From positions 124,001-188,000 of the forward strand of contig NZ_LUKE01000002.1 in the NCBI RefSeq assembly GCF_001592735.1: a stretch of 64,000 nucleotides of DNA. The letters run 5' to 3'. Positions within the stretch are counted from its first letter, which is position 1, and each line of letters starts with the position of its first letter. The notes under the pieces are model-generated. The model did no database searches and was not told where the DNA came from. It saw only the letters and a program-made list of their open reading frames with translations. The DNA comes from Bdellovibrio bacteriovorus (GTDB lineage: Bacteria; Bdellovibrionota; Bdellovibrionia; Bdellovibrionales; Bdellovibrionaceae). This document shows, piece by piece, positions 24,193-60,247 of the stretch. Made by a program: the position numbers and the translations under genes.

Positions 24193-24201
24193 GTGAATCT
24201 C

Positions 24202-24228
24202 TTATCGGACCTCTTGAGGATACCTTGA
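24202..24228 (-). promoter_or_regulatory. Sigma-28-type promoter of the HD-GYP gene
   Basis: On the minus strand TCCGATAA (24209 to 24202) matches 7 of 8 bases of the FliA -10 box GCCGATAA. Exactly 15 bases upstream lies TCAA (consensus TAAA). The -10 box is 9 bases from the ATG. Confidence 0.6.
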
Positions 24229-24253
24229 GATTCTCATTTTGAGACAGGACTTT

Positions 24254-35817: not shown

Positions 35818-36240
35818 AACGTTCCTCCTGAACCTTTAGACCACCTCCCTGTATGATAACGGCGCGGCCGAACGCTGTCGAGTCCGTATGTGAATAATAA
35901 TTTGAAAATGTTCGGGGACAAAAAGTTCTTTTTTGAACCCTGGGAACGTATTCCCAAATAAATAACGACCTTCCAATTTTCACTTTTACTTTTGCTTCTT
36001 CAAAACATTCTCGCACCCACGCAGATTCAATCGGATAGAATCAAACTTTTTCATATTTATAAAATCTTAGTTATTACTCATATTTCGCGGCTTAAAAGTT
36101 CACCAGCTGCATTTTATTGGTTTTCACGTTGTCAGGTTCTCTAGGTGGCTCATTTTAATGATTTTCTCGCAATCTTACTAAGGAAACCAATCCAAAGTTC
36201 CGAAAAGAGTACAACCCTTCTAGAACGTGTAGGTACGGTT
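35818..36240. other. 423-base intergenic region before fibre 1
   Basis: No convincing gene. It holds the ribosome-binding site of the divergent STAS-like gene, a TGGGAA/TTCCCA palindrome at 35941-35956, and an A/T-rich stretch around 36040-36080. A weak sigma-28-like arrangement (TAAG at 36179, 15 bases, TTCCGAAA at 36198-36205) could serve fibre 1, but matches the -10 consensus poorly. Confidence 0.5.
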
Positions 36241-39200: not shown

Positions 39201-40011
39201 ATCCAGCAGTGCAAGTCCTAACATCTATACGGTGAGATCTCGTGGGACCTACTCATCCCCCACCTACGCCCAAAATGGGGATATCCTAGGAACCATCCAA
39301 ATGCGTAATCACAATTCAAACTCTGGCGCCGGAATGATTTCGGTTGCCACTGAAAACCACTCTGCCTCGGCGGCGGGTGCGAATCTGATATTAACGGTCG
39401 TTCCCAATGGATCCTCGTCGTATGCAGAATCTATGACTCTGCTTGCTAATGGCAATGTGGGGGTCGCAACCCCTAATCCGCAAAGTGCCTTGCACGTCAC
39501 AGGTTATGTGCAACTGGATGTAATCAATGGTGTCCCCGCCGCTACAGATTGTGATGCCGCTGCGGAATACGGAAGAATTAAATCAGATCCTACCAATAAC
39601 AAACTTTATATGTGTGGATCTGCAGGATGGGTTGAATACTCCGTCGGCGCTGGCGGCCCCACCACCTGCCCGACCGGATACACTTTGATTGGCGCGGCCG
39701 GATTGCCAAGCAGTTACTGCATCAGCACCGTAGAAAAAACAGCCGCGACGTTCTTAAATGCGAAAACAACTTGTTATGCTGAATCCACCACTCGTGGTGT
39801 GGCTTCGTTGTGCTCTAACGACCAGTGGTATCGAGCGTGCAAAACGGGTTTACCTACCGCCATGAGTTCTGGAAATAACGAATGGGCCAGTGATGAACAC
39901 TACAATATCAGCGGCACTCATTTTGCCCTCACGATGGGTAACGGAAGTTGTGAAACCATGACCGACCAAGCGATCACGGGAACACGAACTTATCGCTGCT
40001 GTATTAAGTAG
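36241..40011 (+). CDS. Mosaic fibre protein 1 (MAT-type adhesin) with cysteine-rich tip
   Basis: 1256 residues from the ATG at 36241, which begins the signal peptide MRIFILLTVFFGSSLTMA; the open frame continues 32 codons upstream but would bury that peptide. Residues ~20-190 form the N-terminal domain common to all four fibres (SYQGRIVKADGQPL..., RSVPFAGFS). The shaft has IGTxSP-type repeats and one copy of the 140-residue shared module. Unlike the other three it has no S74 chaperone; it ends in a ~110-residue cysteine-rich, C-type-lectin-like tip (CPTGYTLIG...YRCCIK). Probably an exported trimeric fibre for recognising prey or surfaces. Confidence 0.82.
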   Translation: MRIFILLTVFFGSSLTMAAPASLSYQGRIVKADGQPLQHTSVSFQFEITSPNGSCVIFREQVNGLNMANSNGIFDTPIGASHNFPLTASFTILDAFNNLGSFTCDGGATYVPAVNDGRRLRVQFHDGSSWRMISPDSIIRSVPFAGFSLAAEKLGNHPVADFVMKSSLPSTACSGTQVLSFNGTGFQCVTDQTGSGGGGTITGVAGSGPIVVSGTGNVTISATVGTASGTLAAGNDSRIVNALQSGATAGGDLAGTYPNPTVAKIKGVGIDFSTAPTTGKFLKFDGTNWVPGDMGQSSASTSGYLSATDWNTFNSKQDALTSAITGNFWSGDGTNVYRTTGKVGVGTNSPDVSLTIQSTTPSTAVHPNRAGVIVKAEGTDVGGRYAARTASGTENPTFTGYRSQGTLAAPTAINTSQHLLNVNGMGYDGAAWKEGASILLSPGEAWDTTKTGTNIIFKTATNGTNSSTEKVRISHNGRIGVGVTSPAALVDAESTGTGTMVSGRFASNPGAVGAANLNALVLDNTFGAGNFKSEIKFRGGGTDQFTIGVDPAGSGTQAFYIWDAIANARRLSMDSSGNIGFGVDNPTQKIDVAGKVKATEFCIGASCISSWPSGGGSLAAGSVGTTELADGAVTQNKLETVSGLTAGTYGSATAIPAVTVDAKGRVTAISTNAITGLPTASGASGKFLKSNGTVWSGQDILFSDIKNSVGGSAFNVGSCAANQTVAWSSLTDSFTCQGIGSLDAGAITTGTIDAARLPSSVTTAQWTAASGNVYRSTGSVGIGTASPESSLHISGGDILLDNARFLKMKRNTGGMAIDVLGFASGTDNLKLKMGTSSSTAGLDFVNSSNNVMATLTGAGNFGIGSSSPSHLLNVVGGGNTNKTVLAELRSNFGGAGTGTTLNLVNSTVAGGFAGSAAIESIRQSDTSGDFAIKAADSSATGVEVLRIKGSNGNVGIGTNSPTEKLSVVGGRLGVMANDWNDMYNHVSSSSASPNIYTVRSRGTYSSPTYAQNGDILGTIQMRNHNSNSGAGMISVATENHSASAAGANLILTVVPNGSSSYAESMTLLANGNVGVATPNPQSALHVTGYVQLDVINGVPAATDCDAAAEYGRIKSDPTNNKLYMCGSAGWVEYSVGAGGPTTCPTGYTLIGAAGLPSSYCISTVEKTAATFLNAKTTCYAESTTRGVASLCSNDQWYRACKTGLPTAMSSGNNEWASDEHYNISGTHFALTMGNGSCETMTDQAITGTRTYRCCIK
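38101..38530 (+). repeat. Shared shaft module, copy in fibre 1
   Basis: Encodes the ELADGAVTQNKLETVSGL to DAARLPSS unit. Differs from other copies mainly at third codon positions. Confidence 0.85.
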
Positions 40012-45330: not shown

Positions 45331-45419
45331 AACCTAAGTCGTTCCCATGTCGTGTTTAATTTTAATAAACATCTAGTCGCCCTTTGAGGGTTTAGTGCCT
45401 TATCCGACTTCGAGATTTC

Positions 45420-45427
45420 TCCGATAA
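45420..45427 (+). promoter_or_regulatory. Sigma-28-type -10 box of fibre 2
   Basis: TCCGATAA matches 7 of 8 bases of GCCGATAA. The base four positions expected for -35 (45401-45404) read TATC, a weak match. The ATG follows after 7 bases with no Shine-Dalgarno. Confidence 0.5.
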
Positions 45428-45434
45428 GAAGATC

Positions 45435-48400
45435 ATGAACTCGGTGATTAACCTCGGAACATTTTGGATTGGTATTCTGGTCACGTTTTACATTAGCTTT
45501 GTAAATGCGGCCCCGACGACATTTAGCTATCAAGGTCGAATTGTAAAGTCAGATAATAAGCCGCTACAGTATCATTCCGTTTCATTCGAATTTCGCATCA
45601 CTAATCCCAATGGGGCTTGCGTGCTTTATCGTGAACAAGTGAGTGGCATCGACATGTCTAATTCGAACGGGATTTTCGATATTCCTATTGGCTTAGGCAC
45701 GAAGCTTTTCCCACTTTCATCTAGCTTTAATCTTTTAGATGCGTTTGAAAATGCGGGCACTTTAAATTGTGAAGGCGGAGCCACGTACTCGCCGCTTTCG
45801 ACCGATGGACGTTTATTACGCGTGCAATTTCACGATGGAAGCGGATGGAAGTTGATTGCTCCGGATAACATCATCCGCTCGGTTCCGTTTGCGGCATTCG
45901 CCGGCAAATCGGGTTCAAGCTCAATGTTAGGCACAAAGACCGAAGCGGATTTTGTTTTAAAAAGTTCTATTCCCACTTGTGGAACGGGTTATGTTTTAAC
46001 TTCTACTTCCTCCGGAATTCTTTCGTGCGCCCTGGCCTCTGCTGGCTCTGGCAGCGGAGTGAGCTCTATCGCCGCATCGAGCCCTCTTTCTGTGGCAGAT
46101 CTTGGAAGTGGATCCTATTCTATTTCTGCAAATGTCGGCACAACCGCGGGCACATTGGCCGCCGGAAATGATTCGCGAATTACAAACGCCATGCAAACAG
46201 GTGCTACGGCAGGCGGAGATCTTTCCGGCACCTATCCAAATCCAAACGTGGCGAAGATCCAAAACATCGGTGTGACATTTACCAGTCCCGCTTCAGGACA
46301 GTTTTTAAAATACAACGGCTCTCAATGGGTGAACGCCACCTTGTCCTCCGCGGATCTGCCATCAGGAACGGCTTCAGCCACCGGAACTGCGGGCGCCATT
46401 CCGTATTTTAGTGCCACAAATACTTTGTCGGACTCTCTGATCTTCCAATCAAGTGGACGCATCGGCATTGGCACAACCACACCGGCATTTGCGCTGGATG
46501 TTGTCGGAGATCTCAATATCACCGGAAGTATTTTGCAAGGTTCTTCTCGACTGCTCCACAACTACACAGCCTCTGGCACAACGGGAAAAAATATTTTCGT
46601 CGGCATCGGTTCAGGCAATACGACCATGGCGTATTCAAGTAACGTCAACAACGCCAGTCTTAACACCGGACTTGGAGCTGACACCTTAAAGTCACTCACC
46701 ACGGGGCGCAGCAATGTGGCCATCGGTACGGGGGCGACAACATCTGTAACAACCGGTTCCTACAATGTTGCTGTTGGGGTGGATACTCTTTCAGTAGCGA
46801 CTTCCGCCGGGTGGAGCACAGCTCTGGGATACAAGGCCTTAAGCGCAACAACTTCGGGAACCTCCAACTCTGCCATGGGGGCTTATGCCCTTTCGGCTAA
46901 CACAACGGGATTAGATAACGTGAGTGTGGGGGCTTCTTCAATGCTAAACACCACCACCGGCAGTTTTAATACGGCCTTAGGGGGCTACAGCCTTGGAAGC
47001 TCTGGCACCGGAGACTCCAATACCGCTGTCGGTCACGCAGCCATGCAAAGTAAATCCGGCGCGCTTAATACAGTTCTTGGAAAAAATGCGGCCAAAGCAC
47101 CAGGTTCCATAAATAATGCCGTGATCCTGGGCGCTGGTGCTGGTGATGTGCAATCCGGTTCTACGGGAAATATTCTTGTTGGTTATCAAGCAGGTAAAAC
47201 CATCACCTCAGGGTCCTATAATATTTTGCTTGGTTACGACATTGATACTCCCGCCGTGACGACAAATAATTTCCTTAATATCGGTAACATGATCTATGCC
47301 ACAAACTTAGGAACGGGATCCACAGCCGCCACGGGAAACGTCGGGATCGGTGTTACTTCCCCCACAGAAAAATTGGATGTCAATGGCAAGGTCAAGGCGA
47401 CAGAGTTTTGTATTGGCGGTTCTTGTATCAGCTCTTGGCCCTCGGGTGGTGGCAGCGGAACCGTCACAAATATTGCCACCGGCACGGGCTTAACAGGGGG
47501 CCCTATCACCGCCACGGGAACTATTTCGATTGCTAACGGTGGTGTCGGTACAACCCAGCTTGCCGATGGCGCGGTCACGCAAAACAAACTTGAAACTGTG
47601 AGTGGATTAACAGCCGGTGCTTACGGCAGTGCCACAGCTATCCCGGCCATCACTGTCGATGCCAAAGGGCGCGTGACAGCGATTTCAACCAATGCGATCA
47701 CCGGTTTACCGGCGGCCAGTGGTGTCAGCGGTAAATTCTTAAAATCCAACGGCACGGCGTGGTCCGGCCAAGATATTTTATTTAGTGATATTAAAAACTC
47801 TGTCGGTGGATCGGCGTTTAATGTGGCTTCTTGTGCTGCCAATCAAACTGTCGCGTGGTCTTCGCTGACAGATTCATTTACGTGCCAGGGCATTGGGTCC
47901 TTAGATGCTTCTGCCATCACAACGGGAACTTTAGATGTGGCGCGATTGCCCGCCTCGGTGACTGATGGTGTTTGGGCGGCTTCTAGTGGAAATGTTTATA
48001 GATCCTCTGGAAACGTCGGTATCGGAACGTCCTCGCCTATAAGCCCTTTGCATGTGACGGGACAAATCCGATCAGACTTAGGCTTATCCGTAACCAGTGC
48101 GGGGAATATTTATAAAGACGCTTCTAGTAATCTTGCGTTTAATTCCGCCACCAATGTTATTAATTTTACTAACTCTGCACTGACATCCACTTACATGACC
48201 ATTGCTTCCGGAAAAGTAGGCATTGGTGAAACAAATCCCGCCCACAAACTTTCCGTGAAATCACTTTCACAAGAAACGGCCAACACGGATATCGCCGCCG
48301 CCTTTAGTTACATGTATGCTTGGCCGACGACTTCAAGTGCGGGCCGATTTATCGGACAATTTAATGGGGTTGAAAACGGAAATACGGCCGCTATCACTGG

Positions 48401-49565
48401 CGAACTTGTCGGACAAGCCAATTATGTCAACAACCTCACCTCCCCAGCAATAAACAAAATCACGGGTTCCTGGAGTGGCGTTAAAAATCGCAGCGGCGGA
48501 GGAGCCGTCGCGACGGCGACTGGTTTTCAAGGTGAAATCGAAAATCTTTCTGCAAGCACCGTCACTACCGCGATGGGTGTTCAGTCCTCAGTCACCAACT
48601 CTGGCAGCGGCGCCATTACCAATGCATATGGTTTGTATGTGGGAGACGTCCAAGGAACCAATAAATGGTCGGTTTACGCCTCGGACACTTCCGCGCTTAA
48701 TTATTTTGGCGGCTTTGTGGGAATCGGAAACACGACCCCCACTGTGGCTTTGACCGTCGGTAGTACGGTCAATGGAAACGGAACGATTTTAATCAATCGT
48801 CAAAATACGGGCGGCAACGAGGGTGGAGAAATACAATTTGCTCCGGGAACTAATGGAGAAGATAATTTTGTCATCGACAGTTATTTAGCCGGCGCCAATC
48901 AGCTTCTTAGACTGCGCAGTACGACTAATAATTCTATTCTTAATTTATCTAAAACTGGGAACGTAGGTTTTGGTACGGCCACACCCAAAACCCGCATGCA
49001 CCTGAAACAAGTCGCTGATAACTATACCGGCGGATTTGTGATGGAGGCCAGTGGATCTTCATCCGGCTGGAATATGTTTAGCAATGGCGCAGGGACATCC
49101 TTAATATTTAGTTACGCCGGTGACGTATCTAACATAGATAACTTCGCAGGACAGCACAAAATGTATGTCACCACCGGTGGCAATATGTGGATCGCGGGAA
49201 CTTTAAGCCAAGCCTCGGACATCAGACTTAAAAAAGATATTACTCCGATCAGTGATGCCTTAAATAAAATCACGCAGCTCAACGGTGTCACTTACAACTG
49301 GAAAAACCCGGCCGCGGATCAAGACCTCCAAATGGGTCTTATCGCCCAAGAAGTGCAAAAAGTATTTCCGGAGGCGGTGAAGGAAAATAGTGACGGCTTC
49401 TTATCCGTGAGTTATTCAAATTTAGTGGCGCCGATTATTCAAAGTATCAAAGAGCTTTTCAGTCGCTCTCAAGAGCAAGAACGTGAAATCGCCTCCCTTA
49501 AAGAGGATAATAAGGAAATGAAGAAAGCCTTGTGTGAGTTAGGCAAAACTGCGTTCTGCAAATAG
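45435..49565 (+). CDS. Mosaic fibre protein 2 (MAT-type adhesin) with YadA-like beta-roll and S74 chaperone
   Basis: 1376 residues. Signal peptide, then the common N-terminal domain. After the first shaft repeats, residues ~390-600 are a run of ~14-residue units such as SNVAIGTGA, SYNVAVGVDT and SNTAVGHAA, the pattern of YadA/trimeric-autotransporter head beta-rolls. One shared shaft module follows. The C-terminus is a peptidase S74 intramolecular chaperone starting SDIRLKKDI, with Ser1261 and Lys1266 as the autocleavage dyad, then a coiled coil. The chaperone should trimerise the fibre and cut itself off. Confidence 0.87.
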   Translation: MNSVINLGTFWIGILVTFYISFVNAAPTTFSYQGRIVKSDNKPLQYHSVSFEFRITNPNGACVLYREQVSGIDMSNSNGIFDIPIGLGTKLFPLSSSFNLLDAFENAGTLNCEGGATYSPLSTDGRLLRVQFHDGSGWKLIAPDNIIRSVPFAAFAGKSGSSSMLGTKTEADFVLKSSIPTCGTGYVLTSTSSGILSCALASAGSGSGVSSIAASSPLSVADLGSGSYSISANVGTTAGTLAAGNDSRITNAMQTGATAGGDLSGTYPNPNVAKIQNIGVTFTSPASGQFLKYNGSQWVNATLSSADLPSGTASATGTAGAIPYFSATNTLSDSLIFQSSGRIGIGTTTPAFALDVVGDLNITGSILQGSSRLLHNYTASGTTGKNIFVGIGSGNTTMAYSSNVNNASLNTGLGADTLKSLTTGRSNVAIGTGATTSVTTGSYNVAVGVDTLSVATSAGWSTALGYKALSATTSGTSNSAMGAYALSANTTGLDNVSVGASSMLNTTTGSFNTALGGYSLGSSGTGDSNTAVGHAAMQSKSGALNTVLGKNAAKAPGSINNAVILGAGAGDVQSGSTGNILVGYQAGKTITSGSYNILLGYDIDTPAVTTNNFLNIGNMIYATNLGTGSTAATGNVGIGVTSPTEKLDVNGKVKATEFCIGGSCISSWPSGGGSGTVTNIATGTGLTGGPITATGTISIANGGVGTTQLADGAVTQNKLETVSGLTAGAYGSATAIPAITVDAKGRVTAISTNAITGLPAASGVSGKFLKSNGTAWSGQDILFSDIKNSVGGSAFNVASCAANQTVAWSSLTDSFTCQGIGSLDASAITTGTLDVARLPASVTDGVWAASSGNVYRSSGNVGIGTSSPISPLHVTGQIRSDLGLSVTSAGNIYKDASSNLAFNSATNVINFTNSALTSTYMTIASGKVGIGETNPAHKLSVKSLSQETANTDIAAAFSYMYAWPTTSSAGRFIGQFNGVENGNTAAITGELVGQANYVNNLTSPAINKITGSWSGVKNRSGGGAVATATGFQGEIENLSASTVTTAMGVQSSVTNSGSGAITNAYGLYVGDVQGTNKWSVYASDTSALNYFGGFVGIGNTTPTVALTVGSTVNGNGTILINRQNTGGNEGGEIQFAPGTNGEDNFVIDSYLAGANQLLRLRSTTNNSILNLSKTGNVGFGTATPKTRMHLKQVADNYTGGFVMEASGSSSGWNMFSNGAGTSLIFSYAGDVSNIDNFAGQHKMYVTTGGNMWIAGTLSQASDIRLKKDITPISDALNKITQLNGVTYNWKNPAADQDLQMGLIAQEVQKVFPEAVKENSDGFLSVSYSNLVAPIIQSIKELFSRSQEQEREIASLKEDNKEMKKALCELGKTAFCK
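46600..47260 (+). repeat. YadA-like head repeats within fibre 2
   Basis: Tandem ~14-residue units with NxAxG-type cores (VAIGTG, VAVGVD, TALGYK, SAMGAY, VSVGAS, TALGGY, TAVGHA). Unique to this fibre among the four. Confidence 0.8.
47530..47965 (+). repeat. Shared shaft module, copy in fibre 2
   Basis: Same protein unit as at 38101-38530, with DVARLPAS at its end. Confidence 0.85.
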
Positions 49566-49643
49566 ACTCTCGTATTGTTTATGTGCCCTAAACATAATAG
49601 GTCTCATATATCGACAACGCCCCTGTATTATGACTCAAAAAAT

Positions 49644-49651
49644 ACCGATAA
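49644..49651 (+). promoter_or_regulatory. Sigma-28-type -10 box of fibre 3
   Basis: ACCGATAA, 7 of 8 bases of the consensus, 8 bases before the ATG at 49660. No good -35 match at the 15-base spacing (GTAT). Confidence 0.45.
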
Positions 49652-49659
49652 GTTCTTTG

Positions 49660-52600
49660 ATGGGACGTCTTCTGATCACTCTTATTTTTGTTCTAAACGT
49701 GTCACATGCCTTCGCCACGCCGGGGACTTTAACATATCAAGGTCGTATCGTGAGATCCGACGGTATTCCTCTTGAACACTCTAGCGTCTCTTTTGAATTT
49801 AGAATCACGAATCCTAGCGGCTCGTGCGTAATTTATCGCGAACAAAAAAATGGTTTGGATATGACTAACTCCAAAGGAGTGTTCGACACCCCGATTGGGG
49901 ATGGCACTGTTTTATACCCGACCGATCCCAGTTTTAATTTACAAAAATCTTTTGAGAATAGCGGGACCTTAAACTGTGAAGGTGGCACGACGTACTCGCC
50001 TGTTAATACCGACGGGCGACTTCTTCGCGTCAAATTTCATGATGGTTCTGGTTGGAAATCCATTTCACCGGACAACATCATTCGCACGGTCCCCTATGCC
50101 GCTTATTCCGCCAAAGCGGTATCGGCCACCTTACTGGGCACCAAGGCTGAAACTGATTTCGTTTTAAAAACCGGCATCCCTACTTGCGGCACAGGTTATG
50201 TCTTAACTTCCACATCGGCGGGAGTATTAACTTGTACTTTGGATACGGGCGGCTCGTTGAGTACCGTGAACTCGATCACGGGCGTGCCACCTCTTTCTGC
50301 TGTCGACTTAGGGGCCGGGGCTTACTCGATCTCTGCAAGCATCGGGACGTCCGCAGGAACTTTAGCCGCAGGCAATGACACACGCATCGTGAATGCCTTG
50401 CAAAGTGGCGCGACAGCCGGTGGGGATCTTTCAGGAACTTATCCAAATCCCTCGGTGGCAAAAATTCAGAATGTCGGAATAGACTTTTCAACGGCACCCA
50501 CGACCGGCCAATTTTTAAAATTTGATGGTACAAATTGGGTGGCTAGCAGTACGCTGCCTAATTCTATTAGTAATAATCTTTGGAGTGGGAACGGCACGAA
50601 TATTTATCGCGCAACGGGTTTGGTAGGTATCGGAACCAACTCCCCCACTGAGACCCTTGACGTCCACCAAAACATTGGCAACACACCTTTAAGCGCGACT
50701 TTTGCCAATGATGCCACAGGAGCCACCGCCCACAGCGTTTTATTTCTTAAAACGGCAAGTTCTGGTGGTGATACTTTTATCCGCTACCAGCCCGATGATG
50801 CCAGTCATATTTGGACGACGGGTGTGGATGTCAGCGATGGCGGTAAATTTAAAATCGCGGCCGATTCGTCTAATATCGGCCCGGGTTTCGGGGATATTTT
50901 AACGGTCACCACCGCAGGAAGTGTCGGCATCGGCACGACCACTCCCAGTGCCAAGCTTCATGTCGCAGGATCGGTGATCGTCGGTAACGGCGGGGAAACT
51001 TGTTCAGCCTCTTTAGCCGGCGCTCTTCGCTATTCTTCTAGTTCGATCCAATTTTGTAACGCTTCGACTTGGGTGACACTTGGTACGGGCTCTTCAAGCG
51101 GAACAGTGACTTCCGTGACTGCGGGCACAGGTCTTAATGGCGGAAATATCACGACCTCGGGGACGATTTCCATTGCGGACGGCGGCGTTGGCACCACTCA
51201 ACTGGCGGATGGTGCTGTGACTTCGGCAAAACTTGAAACCGTGTCCGGGCTCTCCGCGGGAAGTTACGGCAGTGCCACAGCTGTACCGGCCATCACGGTG
51301 GATGCCAAAGGACGCGTGACGGCGATTTCCACTAACGCGATCACCGGTTTGCCGACCGCCAGTGGTGTCAGCGGGAAATTTTTAAAATCAAATGGAACTA
51401 TCTGGTCCGGACAAGACATTTTATTTAGTGATATCAAAAATTCTGTCGGTGGTTCGGCGTTTAACGTGGCCACGTGTGCCGCCAACCAAACCGTCGCTTG
51501 GTCTTCACTGACGGATTCATTCACTTGCCAAAATATCGGGTTGTTGAACGCTTCAACCATCACCGCCGGAACTTTAGACATCGCTCGCTTACCATCTTCC
51601 GTGACTGACGGCATCTGGAGTGGTTCTAGTGGCAACGTCTATCGCACCAGCGGCAACGTGGGTATTGGCATCTCTGCCCCCACCCGTCGTCTGCATATTA
51701 TTGGCGACGGAACTGATTACGGCGACGATCTATTTTTCGAAGGCACTAATTCCGAAACGGCCGTTCCTCAAATTAACCTTGTGCGCGCTCGCGGAACAAC
51801 AACCACTCGCAACGCGGTTCAGGCCGGAGATGATTTAGGCGTTGTCGCCTTCCGGGGATACGATGGGACCACCCACGCCTATGGCAGCCGCATCTCAGGA
51901 AGTGCCGAGACGACATTTTCGACGGCAGTGAATGGCTCTTTAAGATTTCTAACCACCGCCGCGGGCACCGAAGCGGAGCGCATGAGACTTTCTTCCACCG
52001 GAAATCTCGGTATTGGCACGACAACTCCTCAAGTGAAACTGGAAGTGTCGGACGATGTTTCTGGCGGCACAGGCGGAAAGTTTCTTTTAAGAAATCCGTC
52101 CGAAGCCGTGAATTCAAGCTCGACGCTTTATTTTGGCACGGGAATTGGTGGGCCCACGGTCAATAATCTTCAAGCCTTTATTCGCGGCACGGTCGTTCAA
52201 GCCGATCCCAATCCGCTTAAAGGGGAGCTTCAATTTTGGATTAATGGTGGAGATTCCACCGCGCAAGCGATGACCATCAAGGACAACGGGAATGTTGGTA
52301 TTGGCACGACAACAGCCCCCTCTCCGTTAACGGTGGCTACGGGCTCAGCTCAGTTCACCTCAGGAATTTCCATCATGCCCAGCACACATTCCACATCACG
52401 ACGCTCTTCGATCTTGCTGGATGATTGGAACATAGGCCAAGACCTCCAAGGCAACGGAACCAAAGATTTATACTTCTGGCAAGGCTCTACCGGTGTAACG
52501 CGGTTTATGATTAATCCGAGCGGTAACGTCGGCATCGGGACGGCAAGTCCCCTCTCTAAGTTACATGTTACCGGTGGATCCATCACTCTAGATACCGGGC

Positions 52601-53232
52601 AAGGAATTCAGATTGGCAACTGGTCCGCGTTCGCCGCAAGTTCCAACACCGCTTTTGTTCGCGGTGACAATATCGCCTTTCAAAGCAGTGCCGCGAACTC
52701 GACATATATGTATATGAACAGTGCGGGGAATATCGGCGTGGGCACTATTTCTCCGGGCTATAAACTCGATGTCATTGGCAACATGCGTGCGTATGGAATC
52801 ACGGATTCTTCAGACGTTCGTTTGAAGCGTGACATTCAACCGCTGACAAATGATTTAGATAAAATTCTAAATCTTCAAGGGGTCAGCTATTTTTGGAAAG
52901 ACAATGAGACACACGGGTCTCGGAAACAAATTGGGGTTATCGCCCAAGATATTGAGAAAGAATATCCAGAGCTCGTTGAAACCGACAAAGAAGGTATGAA
53001 ATCGGTCAACTATTCACATTTCATTGCTCCTTTGATTGAGTCTATTAAAACGCTCTACAAACAGGTCGTCGGCATTAAAGACCATCAGGTGACTTTAGAG
53101 CGACAAATCGCTTCTAAGGCTGACCAGAGCGAAATAGACGCCCTTAAAGCTAAAAATCTGGAGCTTGAAAAACAGAACGCGGAACTGAAAATTCGACTGG
53201 ATAAGATCGAAGAAATGCTCAAATCAAAATAG
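49660..53232 (+). CDS. Mosaic fibre protein 3 (MAT-type adhesin) with S74 chaperone
   Basis: 1190 residues from the ATG at 49660. The frame is open to 49630, but the -10 box at 49644 and the ideal signal peptide MGRLLITLIFVLNVSHAFA both favour 49660. Common N-terminal domain, shaft with several IGTTTPxxKLxV repeats, and one shared module. The C-terminus is an S74 chaperone beginning SDVRLKRDI (Ser1051, Lys1056), followed by a long coiled coil (RQIASKADQSEIDALKAK...). No extra tip domain is evident; specificity probably lies in the region before the chaperone. Confidence 0.85.
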   Translation: MGRLLITLIFVLNVSHAFATPGTLTYQGRIVRSDGIPLEHSSVSFEFRITNPSGSCVIYREQKNGLDMTNSKGVFDTPIGDGTVLYPTDPSFNLQKSFENSGTLNCEGGTTYSPVNTDGRLLRVKFHDGSGWKSISPDNIIRTVPYAAYSAKAVSATLLGTKAETDFVLKTGIPTCGTGYVLTSTSAGVLTCTLDTGGSLSTVNSITGVPPLSAVDLGAGAYSISASIGTSAGTLAAGNDTRIVNALQSGATAGGDLSGTYPNPSVAKIQNVGIDFSTAPTTGQFLKFDGTNWVASSTLPNSISNNLWSGNGTNIYRATGLVGIGTNSPTETLDVHQNIGNTPLSATFANDATGATAHSVLFLKTASSGGDTFIRYQPDDASHIWTTGVDVSDGGKFKIAADSSNIGPGFGDILTVTTAGSVGIGTTTPSAKLHVAGSVIVGNGGETCSASLAGALRYSSSSIQFCNASTWVTLGTGSSSGTVTSVTAGTGLNGGNITTSGTISIADGGVGTTQLADGAVTSAKLETVSGLSAGSYGSATAVPAITVDAKGRVTAISTNAITGLPTASGVSGKFLKSNGTIWSGQDILFSDIKNSVGGSAFNVATCAANQTVAWSSLTDSFTCQNIGLLNASTITAGTLDIARLPSSVTDGIWSGSSGNVYRTSGNVGIGISAPTRRLHIIGDGTDYGDDLFFEGTNSETAVPQINLVRARGTTTTRNAVQAGDDLGVVAFRGYDGTTHAYGSRISGSAETTFSTAVNGSLRFLTTAAGTEAERMRLSSTGNLGIGTTTPQVKLEVSDDVSGGTGGKFLLRNPSEAVNSSSTLYFGTGIGGPTVNNLQAFIRGTVVQADPNPLKGELQFWINGGDSTAQAMTIKDNGNVGIGTTTAPSPLTVATGSAQFTSGISIMPSTHSTSRRSSILLDDWNIGQDLQGNGTKDLYFWQGSTGVTRFMINPSGNVGIGTASPLSKLHVTGGSITLDTGQGIQIGNWSAFAASSNTAFVRGDNIAFQSSAANSTYMYMNSAGNIGVGTISPGYKLDVIGNMRAYGITDSSDVRLKRDIQPLTNDLDKILNLQGVSYFWKDNETHGSRKQIGVIAQDIEKEYPELVETDKEGMKSVNYSHFIAPLIESIKTLYKQVVGIKDHQVTLERQIASKADQSEIDALKAKNLELEKQNAELKIRLDKIEEMLKSK
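51180..51612 (+). repeat. Shared shaft module, copy in fibre 3
   Basis: Variant with SAKLETVSGLSAGSYG and a LLNASTITAG end. Confidence 0.85.
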
Positions 53233-53308
53233 GTTTTCATTCGCAGCCTAAAGATTTTTTTCGTTTATGCGAGATAAACGAATCATCTTTACTTTACGTC
53301 AAATTTGC

Positions 53309-53335
53309 TAAAACTTTCTCAAAGTAAGCCGATAA
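53309..53335 (+). promoter_or_regulatory. Consensus sigma-28 promoter of fibre 4
   Basis: TAAA at 53309-53312, exactly 15 bases, then GCCGATAA at 53328-53335: a perfect match to the FliA core. The ATG follows 7 bases later, where transcription should begin, with no Shine-Dalgarno. Confidence 0.8.
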
Positions 53336-53342
53336 GTAAAGC

Positions 53343-56300
53343 ATGGAATGTTCTGGGTTTTCGTTCTATTTTTTCGTCCTTTCGGCATTGCTCTCTTTGC
53401 TAGGTCCTCAGAGGGCTTCAGCTTCTCCACCGACATTTTCTTATCAAGGTCGCATTTTAAAATCTGACGGCGCTCCCCTTCAATATAACAACGTATCCTT
53501 TGAATTTCGTATCACCAGTCCCGATGGATCTTGCATCCTTTATCGCGAACAAAAAAATGGCGTTGATATGACCAACTCCAAAGGGATCTTTGACACACCG
53601 ATTGGCGCTGGCACTAAACTTTTTCCGGCCGATCCTCTTTTTACTTTGATTGACGCTTTTGAAAACTCAGGAACTTTGAACTGTGAAGGTGGCGCGACTT
53701 ACAATCCCATTAATACCGATGGCCGCCTTTTAAGAGTGCAATTCCATGACGGCGGAGGATGGAAATCTATTTCGCCGGATAATATCATTCGTTCGGTTCC
53801 ATTTTCTTCTTACGCCGCCAAAGCCGCTACGTCCAAACGCTTGGGAACGAAAACGGAAACGGATTTTGTTTTAAAAAGTGCGATTCCTGTTTGCGGCACC
53901 GGTTACGTTTTAACTTCAACAACCTCCGGCGTTTTAACATGCGCGCTAGACGGCGGAACTCAACTTGCTGACGGTGCAGTCACCCCAAACAAACTTGAAA
54001 CCGTCTCGGGCCTCACCGCGGGAAGTTATGGTAACTCATCCACGGTTCCGGTGATCACTGTTGATACCAAAGGACGTATCACCGCAATTTCCACAAACAC
54101 AGTCACAGGCTTGCCTGTGGCCAGTGGTGTTAGCGGAAAATTTCTAAAATCAAATGGCACTGCGTGGTCAGGCCAGGATATTTTATTTAGCGATATTAAA
54201 AATTCCTCCGGGACATCGGCTTTCAATGTGGCTGCTTGCGGAGCGAATCAAACTGTCGCTTGGGCTTCTTTGACAGACTCATTTACGTGTCAGAGTATCG
54301 GGTCATTAGATGCTTCGGCTATTTCATCCGGAACGCTCAATGTCGCCCGTCTTCCCTCCTCTCTCACCAATGGCGCATGGAACGGCGATGGTACCAATGT
54401 CTATCGCACCACGGGCCGAGTCGGTGTCGGAACAAACACTCCGTCACAAGAATTAGATGTCGTCGGTAAAGTGAACGCCACCGAGTTTTGTATTGCCGGA
54501 TCTTGTATTAGTTCTTGGCCTTCGGGCGGAGGTGGTACGGTCACAAATATCGCGACTGGCACGGGCTTAACCGGCGGACCGATCACGGCCACCGGAACCA
54601 TCTCAATTGCCAATGGCGGTGTCGGCACAACTCAGATCGCCGATGGTGCGGTCACTCAAAACAAACTTGAAACCGTGACGGGACTTACTGCAGGTGCTTA
54701 TGGCAGTGCGACGGCTGTTCCTTCAATTACCGTTGATGCCAAGGGTCGCGTGACGGCTATTTCTACAAATTCGATCACAGGTTTACCCGCGGCCAGTGGT
54801 GTGAGCGGGACATTCTTAAAATCAAACGGCACGACGTGGTCAGGGCAAAATATTTTATTTAGTGATATCAAAAATTCTGTCGGTGGGTCAGCCTTTAATG
54901 TGGGTTCTTGTGCTGCGAACCAAACTGTCGCTTGGTCTTCACTCACGGATTCATTCACTTGCCAAAACATTGGGTCCTTAGATGCTTCAGCCATCACCGC
55001 GGGAACTTTAGATATCGCCCGTCTTCCATCGGCTGTGACCGACGGGATGTGGGGAGCTTCCACCGGAAACGTCTATCGTTCCACGGGCAACGTGGGAATC
55101 GGCACCTCGTCGCCGGCCTTAAAATTAAGTGTTAATGGTGAAGTGCAATTAAGCTCCACCGGTGCAGTTTGTAATAGCACTAACGCCGGCGCTTTGCAGT
55201 ACGCTTCGGGAACTCTGCAGCTGTGTAACGGAACAAATTGGACCTCACTCAGTGGCGCGCCTGCGGGTTTAGTGAGTGCTTTTTCAGTGAACACCTGCCC
55301 TGCGGGATGGCTTGAAGCCAACGGCGCGACTGTGTCTCGCACGACGTACTCGGCTTTGTTTTCTGCAGTCGGAACGACTTTTGGTGCCGGTGATGGATCC
55401 ACCACGTTCCAACTGCCCGATCTGCGCGGCGAATTTATTCGTGGTTGGGATCATGGACGTGGTGTCGACAGTGGTCGCACATTTGGTTCATGGCAAGTCG
55501 GAAGTTACTTTATCCAACGTGACGCTAATAATGCTGGGAACGGCATTCAGCCTGAATTTTCTGACGATGCTTTCGGCAGCAATGCCAGCTGGGATGGTGG
55601 TGGTGGACGTGTGAGCGCACCGTACACCATTCCCGGAACTTCGATTACAATTGCGGCCCGTGCGGCCACCGCGTTATCAACCCAAGGAGCTACTGTTGCC
55701 ACCAACAATCTTCTGGTGATGAGAGGCGCGCGTCCCCGTAATATCTCGCTGATCTATTGTGTTAGCACCGCCACAAATACTTCAAGCACGGTGGCAAGTA
55801 CGGGAACCGGAACCACAAATTACATTCCGAAGTGGACTAGCACCACAGGACTTGGCAACAGCATTTTATTTGATGCCGGAACAGGTATCGGGATTGGCAC
55901 GACCACTCCCTCTCAAGCTCTAGATGTTGCGGGTAAAGTGAATGCCACAGAGTATTGCATCGCCGGATCTTGTATCAACTCTTGGCCATCCGGTGGCGGC
56001 AGTGGCACGGTCACAAATATTGCAACCGGCACAGGCTTAACCGGCGGACCTATCACGGCCACGGGAACTATTGCAATTGCCAATGGGGGTGTGGGCACGA
56101 CCCAACTTGCAGATGGCGCCGTCACTCAAAGCAAACTTGAAACAGTAAGTGGTCTTACCGCAGGTGCTTATGGAAGTGCGACGGCTATTCCGTCAATCAC
56201 AGTTGATACCAAAGGTCGCGTCACCGCCATTTCAACAAACACCATCACAGGGCTGCCTTCTGCGGGTACGAGTGGTAAATTTTTAAAATCCAATGGCACC

Positions 56301-58199
56301 ACTTGGTCCGGCCAAGATATTTTATTTAGTGATATCAAAAATTCTGTCGGCGGCTCCGCCTTTAACGTGGCTTCTTGTGCCGCAAACCAAACTGTCGCTT
56401 GGTCGTCGCTGACGGATTCATTCACTTGCCAAAACATTGGGTCTTTAGATGCGTCTGCCATCACCGCAGGAACTTTGGATGTAGCTCGCCTCCCCGCTGC
56501 GGTGACCGACGGTCTGTGGAGCAGCACTAGCGGAAATGCGTATCGTTCTACGGGCAACGTGGGCGTGGGCACGACAAGTCCCGTCCAGCTTATGCAACTG
56601 CATAAATCAACGGCGGCGTCGTCATTAACGGCTTACACAAACTCGAGCACGGGGGCTACTTTGTCCGATGGTTCCGTGGTGGGTATTGATGCCACAGGAA
56701 ATATGTGGCTTTGGAATCAAGAAAATTTACCGGTCTTGTTTGGAACCAATAATGGCGAGCGCATGCGTATTGCCGCTAATGGCAATGTTGGGATTGGCAC
56801 AACCTCCCCATCTGCAAAACTTGAGATCGGCGGAACACCCGGCACGGATGGTATTAGATTTCCGGATGGAACATTGCAAACGACGGCGGCCTCGACGATT
56901 GGGGTTAATAACACCTTTGTCAGCAACTGGCCGGATGTGATTTATTGTAATGACGGCAGCGAATATTCAATTCTTCACATAGACACGAAAGAATCTGCAG
57001 CCACCCGAGTATGGTATACCAAGGCCGCTGGCGGAGGCGCTCACTACATCCGCTTTAATTCGAGCAACGGTGCTTTCGTGGATACGACCTCCTTCACGGG
57101 TTATTCTGCTTGTAACAACAAAAGCATTTCTACCCTTACCAGCGAAGGGCGAACTCATAATATCGCTAAAGGCCCAGCGGCTCAGTGGCTGCAATCCGGT
57201 AACGATGCTTATTACAATGCAGGCAAAGTGGGTATCGGGACATCCTCTCCGACGGCTCCTTTGACTCTGGCCACCGCCTCAGCGGTGAACGGACCGCTTG
57301 CTTATTTCTCGACTCCGAATACGGCCGGCAACTGGAGTTACGTGCAAGTCGATCGTGGCACTTACAAAAGCACTTTCGGTATTGATCCAAACGGCAATGC
57401 CCATGTTTTTGCGGGCCCGGGGCAAGCAACGACCTTCTGGGCTAACGGAACTCAGCACGCCATCTTAAACACCTCAGGAAATTTCGGTGTGGGAACTGGA
57501 AGTCCGCAAGGACGTTTTGATTCAAATATCACGGATGGTGTTTGGGCGTACGCGGTCAGTCGTTCCGGAACTATGCTTGGGGGATTGCACGGAAACTCAG
57601 GCGTTCTGAACTTAACTGCTCTCGCTGGCAACCCTTTAACTCTGCAAGGAAATGGCGGAAAAGTCGGCATCGGCATGACCAACCCAAGCCAAGCCCTCGA
57701 GGTGAACGGAAGAATTAAAACAGCCTCGTCAGCCACGGACTGTGTCGGCGGCTGGGACTGCACGGCCTATTTCTGGGATATGTCGGTAGCTTCTATTTAT
57801 TATTCAGGCCTTACGCAAAGATCGGATCGCCGACTTAAAGAAAATATCACACCGCTAAAAGACGAATATTTAGATCGCTTAGAATACTTGAACCCAGTGA
57901 CTTACACTTGGAAAGATCCAAAAAATGGACATGGTACTAAGTTTGGTCTTATCGCTCAAGAAGTTGAAAGCGTATGGCCTGAAATCGTATCCACGGCCGA
58001 TGATGAAATGAAAACAAAGTCTGTCGATTACACTCAATTGATTTCGCCACTTTTACGACAAGCGCAAGAATCTAGAAAATTTAATCGCGAAGTGCAATCC
58101 GTGATCGAATCTTTAGAACAAAGCAACCGCGACAAAGACAAAGAAATCGCAGAGCTTAAAGCGCGTCTAGAAAAAATCGAAAAAGCCCTTGGCAAATAG
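53343..58199 (+). CDS. Mosaic fibre protein 4 (MAT-type adhesin) with tail-collar domain and S74 chaperone
   Basis: 1618 residues, the largest of the four. Signal peptide and common N-terminal domain, then three copies of the shared shaft module. Between copies 2 and 3, residues ~640-810 form a phage tail-collar domain (CPAGWLEANGATVSRTTYSALFSAVGTTFGAGDG, LPDLRGEFIRGWDHGRG...). The end is an S74 chaperone starting SDRRLKENI (Ser1494, Lys1499) plus a coiled coil. The collar domain is normally found in phage tail fibres. Three modules plus this insert explain its size. Confidence 0.88.
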   Translation: MECSGFSFYFFVLSALLSLLGPQRASASPPTFSYQGRILKSDGAPLQYNNVSFEFRITSPDGSCILYREQKNGVDMTNSKGIFDTPIGAGTKLFPADPLFTLIDAFENSGTLNCEGGATYNPINTDGRLLRVQFHDGGGWKSISPDNIIRSVPFSSYAAKAATSKRLGTKTETDFVLKSAIPVCGTGYVLTSTTSGVLTCALDGGTQLADGAVTPNKLETVSGLTAGSYGNSSTVPVITVDTKGRITAISTNTVTGLPVASGVSGKFLKSNGTAWSGQDILFSDIKNSSGTSAFNVAACGANQTVAWASLTDSFTCQSIGSLDASAISSGTLNVARLPSSLTNGAWNGDGTNVYRTTGRVGVGTNTPSQELDVVGKVNATEFCIAGSCISSWPSGGGGTVTNIATGTGLTGGPITATGTISIANGGVGTTQIADGAVTQNKLETVTGLTAGAYGSATAVPSITVDAKGRVTAISTNSITGLPAASGVSGTFLKSNGTTWSGQNILFSDIKNSVGGSAFNVGSCAANQTVAWSSLTDSFTCQNIGSLDASAITAGTLDIARLPSAVTDGMWGASTGNVYRSTGNVGIGTSSPALKLSVNGEVQLSSTGAVCNSTNAGALQYASGTLQLCNGTNWTSLSGAPAGLVSAFSVNTCPAGWLEANGATVSRTTYSALFSAVGTTFGAGDGSTTFQLPDLRGEFIRGWDHGRGVDSGRTFGSWQVGSYFIQRDANNAGNGIQPEFSDDAFGSNASWDGGGGRVSAPYTIPGTSITIAARAATALSTQGATVATNNLLVMRGARPRNISLIYCVSTATNTSSTVASTGTGTTNYIPKWTSTTGLGNSILFDAGTGIGIGTTTPSQALDVAGKVNATEYCIAGSCINSWPSGGGSGTVTNIATGTGLTGGPITATGTIAIANGGVGTTQLADGAVTQSKLETVSGLTAGAYGSATAIPSITVDTKGRVTAISTNTITGLPSAGTSGKFLKSNGTTWSGQDILFSDIKNSVGGSAFNVASCAANQTVAWSSLTDSFTCQNIGSLDASAITAGTLDVARLPAAVTDGLWSSTSGNAYRSTGNVGVGTTSPVQLMQLHKSTAASSLTAYTNSSTGATLSDGSVVGIDATGNMWLWNQENLPVLFGTNNGERMRIAANGNVGIGTTSPSAKLEIGGTPGTDGIRFPDGTLQTTAASTIGVNNTFVSNWPDVIYCNDGSEYSILHIDTKESAATRVWYTKAAGGGAHYIRFNSSNGAFVDTTSFTGYSACNNKSISTLTSEGRTHNIAKGPAAQWLQSGNDAYYNAGKVGIGTSSPTAPLTLATASAVNGPLAYFSTPNTAGNWSYVQVDRGTYKSTFGIDPNGNAHVFAGPGQATTFWANGTQHAILNTSGNFGVGTGSPQGRFDSNITDGVWAYAVSRSGTMLGGLHGNSGVLNLTALAGNPLTLQGNGGKVGIGMTNPSQALEVNGRIKTASSATDCVGGWDCTAYFWDMSVASIYYSGLTQRSDRRLKENITPLKDEYLDRLEYLNPVTYTWKDPKNGHGTKFGLIAQEVESVWPEIVSTADDEMKTKSVDYTQLISPLLRQAQESRKFNREVQSVIESLEQSNRDKDKEIAELKARLEKIEKALGK
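53957..54370 (+). repeat. Shared shaft module, fibre 4 copy 1
   Basis: Most diverged copy: KNSSGTSAFNVAACGANQ in place of KNSVGGSAFNV, and VTVFVEI-antisense differences at DNA level. Confidence 0.8.
54612..55043 (+). repeat. Shared shaft module, fibre 4 copy 2
   Basis: Lies directly before the tail-collar insertion; has SGTFLKSNGTTWSGQN. Confidence 0.85.
55267..55770 (+). other. Tail-collar domain insertion in fibre 4
   Basis: Encodes the domain with PAGWLEANG and LPDLRGEFIRGWDHG motifs, inserted between two shaft modules. Confidence 0.85.
56090..56510 (+). repeat. Shared shaft module, fibre 4 copy 3
   Basis: Two residues shorter than copy 2 (LPSAGTSGKF instead of LPAASGVSGTF). Confidence 0.85.
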
Positions 58200-58260
58200 T
58201 TCAACCCTAAGAGTCCCATAAGATCAGACTCCCATACATTCGTATATTATTTGTAAACTC

Positions 58261-58287
58261 TTAAGCATGCGAAAAACGTCCCGATAA
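58261..58287 (+). promoter_or_regulatory. Sigma-28-type promoter of the glycosidase-like lipoprotein
   Basis: TTAA (58261-58264), 15 bases, CCCGATAA (58280-58287; 7 of 8). Unlike the fibre promoters it leaves a leader of about 25 bases with a GGAAAGG ribosome-binding site. Confidence 0.55.
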
Positions 58288-58318
58288 GATCCTTTGGAAC
58301 TTTTGGAAAGGTTTTTTT

Positions 58319-60247
58319 ATGAAACTAAGACTGGCATGCTTAGTATTATTACTTCCGCTTCTCAACGGCTGCTCAGGCTGCAGCAGTTTTGAACTTCTTA
58401 ATACCTCCTCCTCTTCATCCGGCGGCAACACCACCTCACCAACCCCTTCCACGTTTGTTCCTGAAATCGACACTCTTTCATTGAATTACTTAAAAACCAT
58501 TCAAGATCAATACACCAGCTCGACGTCTTCGTTTTACGTTTTTAAAGATTCTCTGTCCCCCGCAAATCATTTCAATCTTGGCGCCACCTATAATGGCAAT
58601 GGCGGAAGTATTAGCTATGACGATAAGTCCTGCACTTCAACGCAAAGCTACACTGGCGATTCTTGCATCAAATTCACCTATTCTGCGACGGGGGCCATTG
58701 GTGATGGCGGTTATGCGGGATGGGATTTGCTTAACGGAGCTTTTCCTAACGGAGCCGGAAGTCCCCAAATCAACTACGGCACCATTGCTAACGCCGGGTG
58801 GAATTTAACGGGTGCGACGTCTTTAACTTTTTGGGCCAAGGGACAAAGTGGCGGTGAAAAAGTAAAATTTTATGCGCTGGGTGCCGGCTATAGCGTTGAG
58901 GCCAATCCCGACTCAAATCCCGAAGTTCATGTGATCGGGGCTGACGGCAGTGGCTTCATCACGCTGACCACGACATGGACCCAATATACGATGGATCTTA
59001 GTGCAGCGAACCTTTCTTATGTTTTGCGCGGCTTTGGTGCTGTCACAAGTTCCGCAGATTTAAATTCCACCAATGGTGTTTTTTACGTCGATGAAATTAA
59101 ATTTAACGGCATCACCAATTCCCAAAGCCTTGGCTTTTTACAAAGTTACGAATCCCCCGCTTACACCAATCCCGACGGATACTGGCGACAATCGGCGTAT
59201 TCATATGACAACGCCTTAGCATTAATTGCTTTTGTCGGAGCCGAAGAATATGTGCGCGCAAAAAAGATCGCCGATTCTTTTTTATATGCCTTAAGTAAAG
59301 ATCCCACTTTCACGGATGGACGCGTTCGCAATGCCTATACCGCCGGGGATTTAAAAATGGCCCCCGGCTGGGAAAATACGGGAGTCAGTCAAGCAGTGCA
59401 AATGCCTTTGATTTACGATTCAGGAACCGGATTGGTGAATTCAGATTCATACAGTTACGGAACTGCGACCGGAAACGTGGCCTGGGCGTTGTTAGGAATT
59501 TTATCCTATTACGAAAATTACGGAAAAAACCAAGCCGGTGCGAGTAATTATCTCACCGCCGCAAGAAGCATGGCTGATTGGATTCACAATGAAATGACGG
59601 ACTCTCGAGGGGCCGGCGGATTTAAAGGGGGCTATGCAGGTTTTGACGGCGCACAAACAACCGATGATTGGAAATCGGTGGAACACAACTTAGATATTTA
59701 TGCCGCCTTCCAACGATTGTGTTCAATAACGGGAGTAAACACTTATTGCACCGATGCGGCAAAAGCCAAAACGTTTATTCTTTCTATGTGGAATGCTTCG
59801 TCGGGATGTTTTTGGCCCGGAACTGGGACAGATGGCGTGACCACCAATACCGCGGCCTATGCTCTGGATGTGCAGGCCTGGTCGGTTTTGGCCCTTAAAG
59901 ACAGTAATTACTATCAGGCTCTTAACTGCGCTGATACGAAAATGAAAACATCCTCGGGAGCTTACTCTTTTGACGATGGCAACAGTCTTGGACACGATTG
60001 GTATGAGGGCACCGCGCAAATGCTTTCAGCCAATATTCTGGTCGCGAAAGCTTCAGAAGCCCAACGCATTTCGAATGTCTTAAAATCCGTCCGCAGAGTC
60101 GATGGAGCCATCGTCGCCACCCAGAGCACGCACTTTTCGACTTCTTTTGGAAACGGCTATTACAACCGAGCCCACGTCGGAGCCACCGCGTGGTATCTCA
60201 TTGCCCAGATGGGGATCAATCCTTTTTGGCATGGGCATCAACCATGA
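58319..60247 (+). CDS. Lipoprotein with carbohydrate-binding-like and six-hairpin-glycosidase-like domains
   Basis: 642 residues. Lipobox ending at Cys18 (LLNGC), then a Ser/Thr/Pro linker. Residues ~60-260 look like a beta-sandwich of the CBM11/CIA30 kind (GYAGWDLLNG, LTFWAKGQSGGEKVKFYALG, FYVDEIKFNG). Residues ~270-640 form an all-helical domain with alternating helix pairs and aromatic, acidic loops (WRQSAYSYDNALALIAFV, DIYAAFQRL, GHDWYEGTAQM) typical of an (alpha/alpha)6 barrel. Probably a surface carbohydrate-active enzyme. It lies just after fibre 4 and has its own sigma-28-type promoter. Confidence 0.72.
   Translation: MKLRLACLVLLLPLLNGCSGCSSFELLNTSSSSSGGNTTSPTPSTFVPEIDTLSLNYLKTIQDQYTSSTSSFYVFKDSLSPANHFNLGATYNGNGGSISYDDKSCTSTQSYTGDSCIKFTYSATGAIGDGGYAGWDLLNGAFPNGAGSPQINYGTIANAGWNLTGATSLTFWAKGQSGGEKVKFYALGAGYSVEANPDSNPEVHVIGADGSGFITLTTTWTQYTMDLSAANLSYVLRGFGAVTSSADLNSTNGVFYVDEIKFNGITNSQSLGFLQSYESPAYTNPDGYWRQSAYSYDNALALIAFVGAEEYVRAKKIADSFLYALSKDPTFTDGRVRNAYTAGDLKMAPGWENTGVSQAVQMPLIYDSGTGLVNSDSYSYGTATGNVAWALLGILSYYENYGKNQAGASNYLTAARSMADWIHNEMTDSRGAGGFKGGYAGFDGAQTTDDWKSVEHNLDIYAAFQRLCSITGVNTYCTDAAKAKTFILSMWNASSGCFWPGTGTDGVTTNTAAYALDVQAWSVLALKDSNYYQALNCADTKMKTSSGAYSFDDGNSLGHDWYEGTAQMLSANILVAKASEAQRISNVLKSVRRVDGAIVATQSTHFSTSFGNGYYNRAHVGATAWYLIAQMGINPFWHGHQP

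Follow-up and report, generated by a model that had tools for sequence, protein, structure and literature searches.

Putative FliA-type promoters with a leaderless geometry and a second conserved element at the mosaic adhesive trimer genes of Bdellovibrio bacteriovorus

The stretch of DNA analysed here (the window; 64,000 nucleotides of Bdellovibrio bacteriovorus) carries three consecutive fibre genes on the plus strand: fibre 2 (45435..49565; 1376 aa, with a C-terminal S74 chaperone domain, PF13884, 7.8e-21), fibre 3 (49660..53232; 1190 aa, S74 domain, PF13884, 4.8e-18) and fibre 4 (53343..58199; 1618 aa, phage tail collar, PF07484, and S74, PF13884), a part of which resembles the solved Bd2133 tip (PDB 8ond, E 1.8e-10). 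Directly after this cluster, on the same strand, lies the gene of a putative secreted lipoprotein of 642 aa (58319..60247; signal MKLRLACLVLLLPLLNGC), for which we found no Pfam or NCBIfam match. An HD-GYP-type gene (323 aa, HD_5 domain, PF13487, 1.1e-25) occupies 23221..24192 on the minus strand. A further fibre gene, fibre 1 (36241..40011, plus strand; 1256 aa), lies in an open reading frame that extends from 36145 to 40011 and for which 36241 is the better start; it has no S74 match in Pfam.

All four fibres match NF053851, the N-terminal domain of the mosaic adhesive trimer (MAT), with E-values between 6.5e-68 and 7.1e-62 (fibre 1, 7.1e-62; fibre 2, 3.8e-64; fibre 3, 7.7e-68; fibre 4, 6.5e-68). 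In each of them the conserved beta-rich domain of ~130 aa follows the signal peptide, and fibres 2-4 carry S74 as the variable C-terminal tip. By family match the four fibres are MAT proteins, with putative trimeric surface display. MATs have been described as proteins with this N-terminal domain after a signal peptide, with S74 or other tips and with many paralogues, 21 of them reported in strain HD100 (PMC10769870); the genes studied here share the domain, the tips and the paralogy. With a profile of the N-terminal domain we found 24 MAT genes in the genome that contains the window, compared to the 21 in HD100, and 4 to 30 per genome among 21 genomes of the genus (our own included). The main text of PMC10769870 contains neither 'FliA' nor 'promoter', so that the regulation described here is an addition to it. 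Within the MAT N-terminal domain, the Val codon of the NVSF stretch is GTC in 62 of 94 cases (about 30% elsewhere), often inside AACGTCAG.

For the comparison of upstream regions we collected 140 MAT 5' regions, namely 24 from our own genome, 108 from relatives (28 loci plus the best 80 of the further matches listed) and 8 named MATs. B. bacteriovorus kdesi is present twice in this set (G015; L092, L094 and L095), as near-identical copies were removed only from a non-redundant set of 119 MATs, in which loci ≥75% identical over 110 nt were dropped and L138 and L143 were left out because they have no YQG anchor.

The first-pass annotation had noted −10 boxes within one base of GCCGATAA just before five genes of the window, and all five are present: TCCGATAA at 24202-24209 (minus strand) and at 45420, ACCGATAA at 49644, GCCGATAA at 53328 and CCCGATAA at 58280. 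The promoter of fibre 4 indeed matches TAAA-N15-GCCGATAA without a mismatch (53309-53335), and two other sites keep TNAA at the 15-base spacing (TCAA at 24228, minus strand; TTAA at 58261). The remaining two have TATC (45401) and GTAT (49625) at N15, and two of the five sites are thus without a good −35. Common to all five is the longer word CCGATAAG, an exact −10 with a five-base −35 candidate at N16. Fibre 2 has a FliA-type promoter at 45400..45434 (TTATC 45400-45404, N16, CCGATAAG 45421-45428, 6 nt, ATG 45435), and fibre 4 one at 53308..53342 (CTAAA 53308-53312, N16, CCGATAAG 53329-53336, 6 nt, ATG 53343). In fibre 3 (49624..49659) the word lies at 49645-49652, 7 nt before ATG 49660, with a poor −35 (TGTAT). 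The longest open reading frame of this gene starts at 49630, upstream of the −10 box; the geometry argues that ATG 49660, not 49630, is the better start. The lipoprotein gene (promoter 58260..58318; CTTAA, N16, CCGATAAG 58281-58288) has a normal leader with GGAAAGG before ATG 58319. The promoter of the HD-GYP-type gene (24193..24229, minus strand; CTCAA, N16, CCGATAAG 24208-24201, 8 nt, ATG 24192) would leave a leader of 2 nt. Fibre 1 has what we read as a weak FliA-like box (36179..36240; TAAGG, N16, CCGAAAAG 36200-36207, ATG 36241). This fourth MAT gene, together with the leaderless geometry and the second element described below, goes beyond the first-pass annotation.

Whether such boxes stand out against shuffled sequence depends on how strictly they are defined. 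Boxes with at most one mismatch to GCCGATAA do so weakly (79 in the window versus 55.5 ± 7.2 in shuffles), and TAAA-N15-GCCGATAA with up to three mismatches occurs 103 times in the window (75.7 ± 9.0 expected), whereas the exact CCGATAAG is enriched, with 6 copies compared to about 1.5 expected and a maximum of 7 in 200 first-order Markov simulations. Five of the 6 copies directly precede gene starts, the fibre 3 copy lying within the longest open reading frame but before the better ATG 49660; the sixth (31644, minus strand) is located within coding sequence. In 30 further stretches of this genome, 600 kb in all and none of it from the window, 4 of 20 CCGATAAG sites are found upstream of open reading frames (binomial P = 0.0017). 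The density is 127 per Mb for the 60 nt preceding open reading frames and 13.7 per Mb elsewhere; this 9-fold difference is not the equal frequency in coding sequence that the first-pass annotation had named as evidence against its reading. Across the whole genome, TAAA-N15-GCCGATAA with at most one mismatch occurs 78 times and the reversed pattern 35 times, so roughly half of these 78 sites would be chance matches. The boxes of the window are real, and the earlier observation is confirmed.

In B. bacteriovorus HD100, sigma-28/FliA has been described as the master regulator of the attack phase, with the consensus TTAAG-N16-CCGATA in 92 of 140 attack-phase promoters, which were read as FliA sites and whose targets include 'cell-surface anchors' (PMC3627812). 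FliA has also been shown, in an E. coli reporter, to drive the TAD/Flp pilus operon of HD100 and B. exovorus, and is reported to be essential (PMC5430801). The genome studied here has one clear FliA gene (TIGR02479, 282 bits, above the cut-off, 6e-84). The boxes of the window agree with CCGATA(A) and a TTAAG-like −35 at N16, apart from the poor −35 of fibre 3, and the MAT genes as a family fit the same pattern: when 57 non-redundant MAT promoters are combined in a logo, 44 show T at −35, after which come an A-rich stretch and, 16 nt further, CCGATAAG. Upstream of the 140 MAT loci CCGATAA occurs 85 times on the coding strand and 3 times on the other strand, with no occurrence over the 290 nt of coding sequence that follow (less than 290 nt of it was available for the stretches of 601 bases). 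Among the 24 MATs of our own genome 13 are without an exact CCGATAA; the promoter architecture recurs at MAT genes of other Bdellovibrio species. For the three fibre genes, the claim of a FliA regulon is therefore well supported by consensus, spacing, the presence of a FliA gene and conservation, and their boxes are best read as sigma-28 promoters of the attack-phase type, the FliA dependence and the phase being predicted from the motif and the published regulon. The membership of the lipoprotein and the HD-GYP-type gene is predicted from motif and position, and the first-pass interpretation as a whole is partly supported.

FliA control of attack-phase 'cell-surface anchors' is thus already published, and that of MATs is probably implicit in the HD100 table of PMC3627812, since one HD100 MAT bears the PDB name 'Cell wall surface anchor family protein': it is identical to PDB 8oml_A over residues 818-1151, and its full length, 1151 aa, fits Bd1334. 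The system described here shares with the HD100 regulon the −10, the −35, the 16-nt spacing, a single FliA and surface proteins among the targets. It differs in that the window belongs to another genome than HD100; the word 'leaderless' does not occur in the main text of PMC3627812, and the passages of it covered here describe no downstream element. The TAD/Flp pilus operon is likewise a FliA-controlled surface structure of predation, but comprises different genes, and the passages of PMC5430801 covered here have nothing on leaderless starts.

One distance between the −10 box and the start codon is strongly preferred. From the first C of CCGATAAG (C1) to the A of the ATG we counted 14 nt in 50 of the 140 MAT loci if the word is exact, and in 70 if one mismatch is allowed; for other spacings between 8 and 40 nt there are at most 4 exact loci, or 8 with one mismatch. 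By group, this geometry (at most one mismatch) is found in 5 of 24 MATs of our own genome, in 3 of 8 named MATs and in 62 of 108 relatives, a figure biased upward because the relatives are the best of the matches listed. In the window, fibres 2 and 4 have the 14-nt distance, whereas fibre 3 has 15 nt (with 7 nt separating box and ATG) and the HD-GYP-type gene 16 nt; the boxes of the lipoprotein gene and of fibre 1 are not at leaderless distance, and fibres 2 and 3 have a poor −35. In the 57 aligned promoters the base before the ATG is always a pyrimidine, C or T (34 and 23). Moreover, a Shine-Dalgarno match is absent from 69 of the 70 MATs with the 14-nt geometry. Such a match is carried by each of 7 flagellin-family genes (4 or 5 bases) and by 215 of 433 background open reading frames.

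Published transcription starts allow this distance to be interpreted. Of the three HD100 small RNAs that the published table flags FliA, two have their start exactly 14 nt from C1 and one has it at 18. The coordinates of that table hold, as the merRNA position in HD100 contains a c-di-GMP riboswitch. Given small RNA starts at +14 and a MAT spacing of 14, the mRNAs of MATs with this geometry should be leaderless: a start at or next to the ATG is the best reading of the geometry and the two published starts, and for fibre 2 the predicted transcription start is the A of ATG 45435 (C1+14), from the spacing statistics and the published offset. Two side observations concern further RNAs of HD100. 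APsRNA5 of HD100 (L279) has a perfect CCGATAAG and a published start listed at +30, and is not flagged FliA in the table; ~1.3 kb downstream of the merRNA of HD100 (L268, L280), on the same strand, is a MAT gene whose promoter has the 14-nt geometry. In other bacteria, some delta-proteobacteria included, leaderless genes are marked by a signal resembling a −10 box some 10 bp upstream of their start codon (PMC3160421), and the signal near the start codon seen here is alike in this respect. The signals described there are similar to sigma-70 boxes of the TA type, in contrast to the sigma-28 signal here, and Bdellovibrio is absent from the main text of that paper.

The preferred spacing is not restricted to MATs. 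In our own genome CCGATAAG-N(0-30)-ATG has 86 matches, 17 of them at N6 and about 2.3 at each other spacing (P ~5e-10). MATs account for five of the 17, four with in-frame starts and one with a promoter whose ATG is out of frame. Of the 12 non-MAT matches about 8 resemble real gene starts, including those of lipoproteins and a PilZ-like protein (both identified by eye). Over 24 Bdellovibrio genomes N6 yields 340 matches, compared to 19 for the reversed pattern and 363 for N7 to N12 combined; in 42 further genomes of the family, outside the genus, there are 0 to 9 N6 matches per genome. Among the MATs of one other genus, 4 of 30 combine the 14-nt geometry with an ATG, and a further two or more, judged by eye, combine it with GTG. 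In MATs of another genus (L309, L286), CCGATAAG or CCGATAAA apparently precedes a GTG by 6 nt, and leaderless starts may therefore also use this codon.

A second signal, YKGNACGTNYYT, is specific to MATs and located near the start codon. At more than 8 bits it is found in 101 of 119 non-redundant MATs, in 3 shuffled sequences and in 1 of 56 coding controls; a fixed consensus in place of the fitted matrix gives 80 of 119, with 12 on the reverse strand, 4 shuffled and 2 of 56 coding. In our own genome 15 of 24 MATs carry it at more than 8 bits, compared to 8 of 568 other gene starts, and all 11 HD100 MATs that were retrieved have GNACGT near the start (by eye). The element is nearly absent from the MATs of another genus (2 of 30). 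In the window, fibre 3 has the core as GGACGT (49663..49668), 3 nt past the A of the ATG, and fibre 1 has GAACGT in its leader (36223-36228); in fibres 2 and 4 the element is degenerate (GGAACAT, 45456..45462, 8.9 bits, with one change in the GNACGT core; GAATGT, 53346..53351, 11.7 bits), all on the plus strand. The conservation acts on nucleotides. Among 67 genes that have the 14-nt geometry when two mismatches are tolerated, the first 36 nt contain GNACGT 57 times, versus 12.8 in synonymous shuffles, and over the three reading frames the counts are 43, 9 and 5 versus 10.9, 1.0 and 0.9. Likewise, 47 of 82 Thr codons at positions 2-10 of MATs are ACG, compared to 11 of 51 at positions 11-26. 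Bdellovibrio MAT genes thus usually have GNACGTNYYT, kept as a nucleotide sequence irrespective of frame. Neither the 14-nt MAT spacing nor this element has apparently been reported: in the part of the open-access PMC literature covered we found no mention of leaderless starts or of a shared element in MAT genes.

Several possible partners of the element were considered. No convincing complement was found in 8 published attack-phase small RNAs, a partial match in APsRNA3 being about as good as chance. Pairing with the YQGR codons or with another part of the mRNA itself is unconvincing and was rejected (element unpaired 0.456 versus 0.463 in control windows; 1.45 expected pairs versus 1.04 after synonymous shuffling), and predicted folding revealed nothing special. 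A CsrA-type GGA site is not favoured, as the conserved G is followed by different bases (A 55, T 32, C 16 and G 7; n = 110).

The explanation we favour, with good though not full confidence, joins these observations: sigma-28 promoters would produce typically leaderless MAT mRNAs, on which the second element would serve as a recognition site on the nascent transcript. Several observations speak against it: the 14-nt geometry is in the minority among the MATs of our own genome, more than half of which also have no exact CCGATAA; one FliA-flagged small RNA starts at +18, and the start of APsRNA5 is listed at +30; the spacing of fibre 3 is longer by one nucleotide, and fibres 2 and 3 have a poor −35; and the second element is degenerate in fibres 2 and 4, nearly absent from another genus and without a convincing complement in the 8 small RNAs. 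The strongest competing view, which we consider unlikely but worth weighing, takes the second element for a DNA operator, bound by a transcription factor just past the start site, and not for an RNA signal. Operators at +10 to +30 are common, and the ACGT core is palindromic. Yet four features suggest otherwise: the element is oriented (at more than 8 bits 101 forward versus 23 reverse); it lies anywhere between 17 and 56 nt from the −10 box (mode 24), with no clear helical phasing; it stays by the start codon also in several genes with longer leaders; and among changes in its core, those that preserve G-U pairing outnumber the others (12 versus 2, small numbers selected after looking, hence suggestive).

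A second alternative concerns the spacing, and we regard it as improbable. Here the promoters would be ordinary short-leader FliA promoters, and the 14 nt would be inherited from an ancestral cassette of promoter and signal peptide that was copied along with the N-terminal MAT domain, in the absence of selection for leaderless translation. MAT genes are paralogues with a common N-terminal domain, which makes such a cassette plausible; however, the spacing peak is genome-wide and in our own genome consists mostly of non-MAT matches, the spacing is kept although the rest of the upstream region has diverged (57 of 70 distinct at 75% identity), and the second element shifts frame, which speaks against rigid copying. 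Finally, that the fibre boxes are chance matches or belong to another regulator, with the genes transcribed from other promoters, is very improbable and was already disfavoured, for although one-mismatch boxes are frequent in the window and two of five lack a −35, the exact 8-mer is enriched at starts and is conserved, along with a −35 spaced as in the published consensus, in MATs from many species.

Sigma-28 promoters with mostly leaderless mRNAs and a recognition element thus remain our preferred reading, and the course of events would be as follows. In the attack phase, sigma-28 would transcribe the fibre genes, and in typical MAT genes RNA polymerase would start at, or 1-2 nt from, the A of the ATG. 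A start there would give a leaderless mRNA, and its translation would have to begin without a Shine-Dalgarno site. The placement of the MAT boxes would in this way let one sigma factor produce two kinds of mRNA: leadered ones with a Shine-Dalgarno site for the flagellins, and leaderless ones for many MATs, several lipoproteins and secreted proteins. The second element would then be recognized on the nascent mRNA by a trans-acting RNA or protein, affecting translation or stability, and such recognition would allow the fibre repertoire to be controlled as a group. In its most specific form, which we put forward tentatively and would sooner doubt than assert, the MAT mRNAs may constitute a post-transcriptional regulon: a 5'-terminal GNACGU element, situated in the ribosome-binding stretch of mostly leaderless mRNAs, would be the target of a dedicated small RNA, or of an RNA-binding protein, that sets when, or which, fibres are translated after FliA transcription.

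The question addressed is how a predator controls at least 20 prey-recognition fibres. A direct consequence is a corrected gene start, fibre 3 beginning at 49660, not at 49630. HD100, for which MATs, FliA and maps of transcription starts are already available, would allow the proposed control point to be tested. If the proposal is true, fibre synthesis could be uncoupled from that of the flagellins, which are made with the same sigma factor, and the non-growing attack phase would offer, in leaderless translation, a natural case of Shine-Dalgarno-free initiation.
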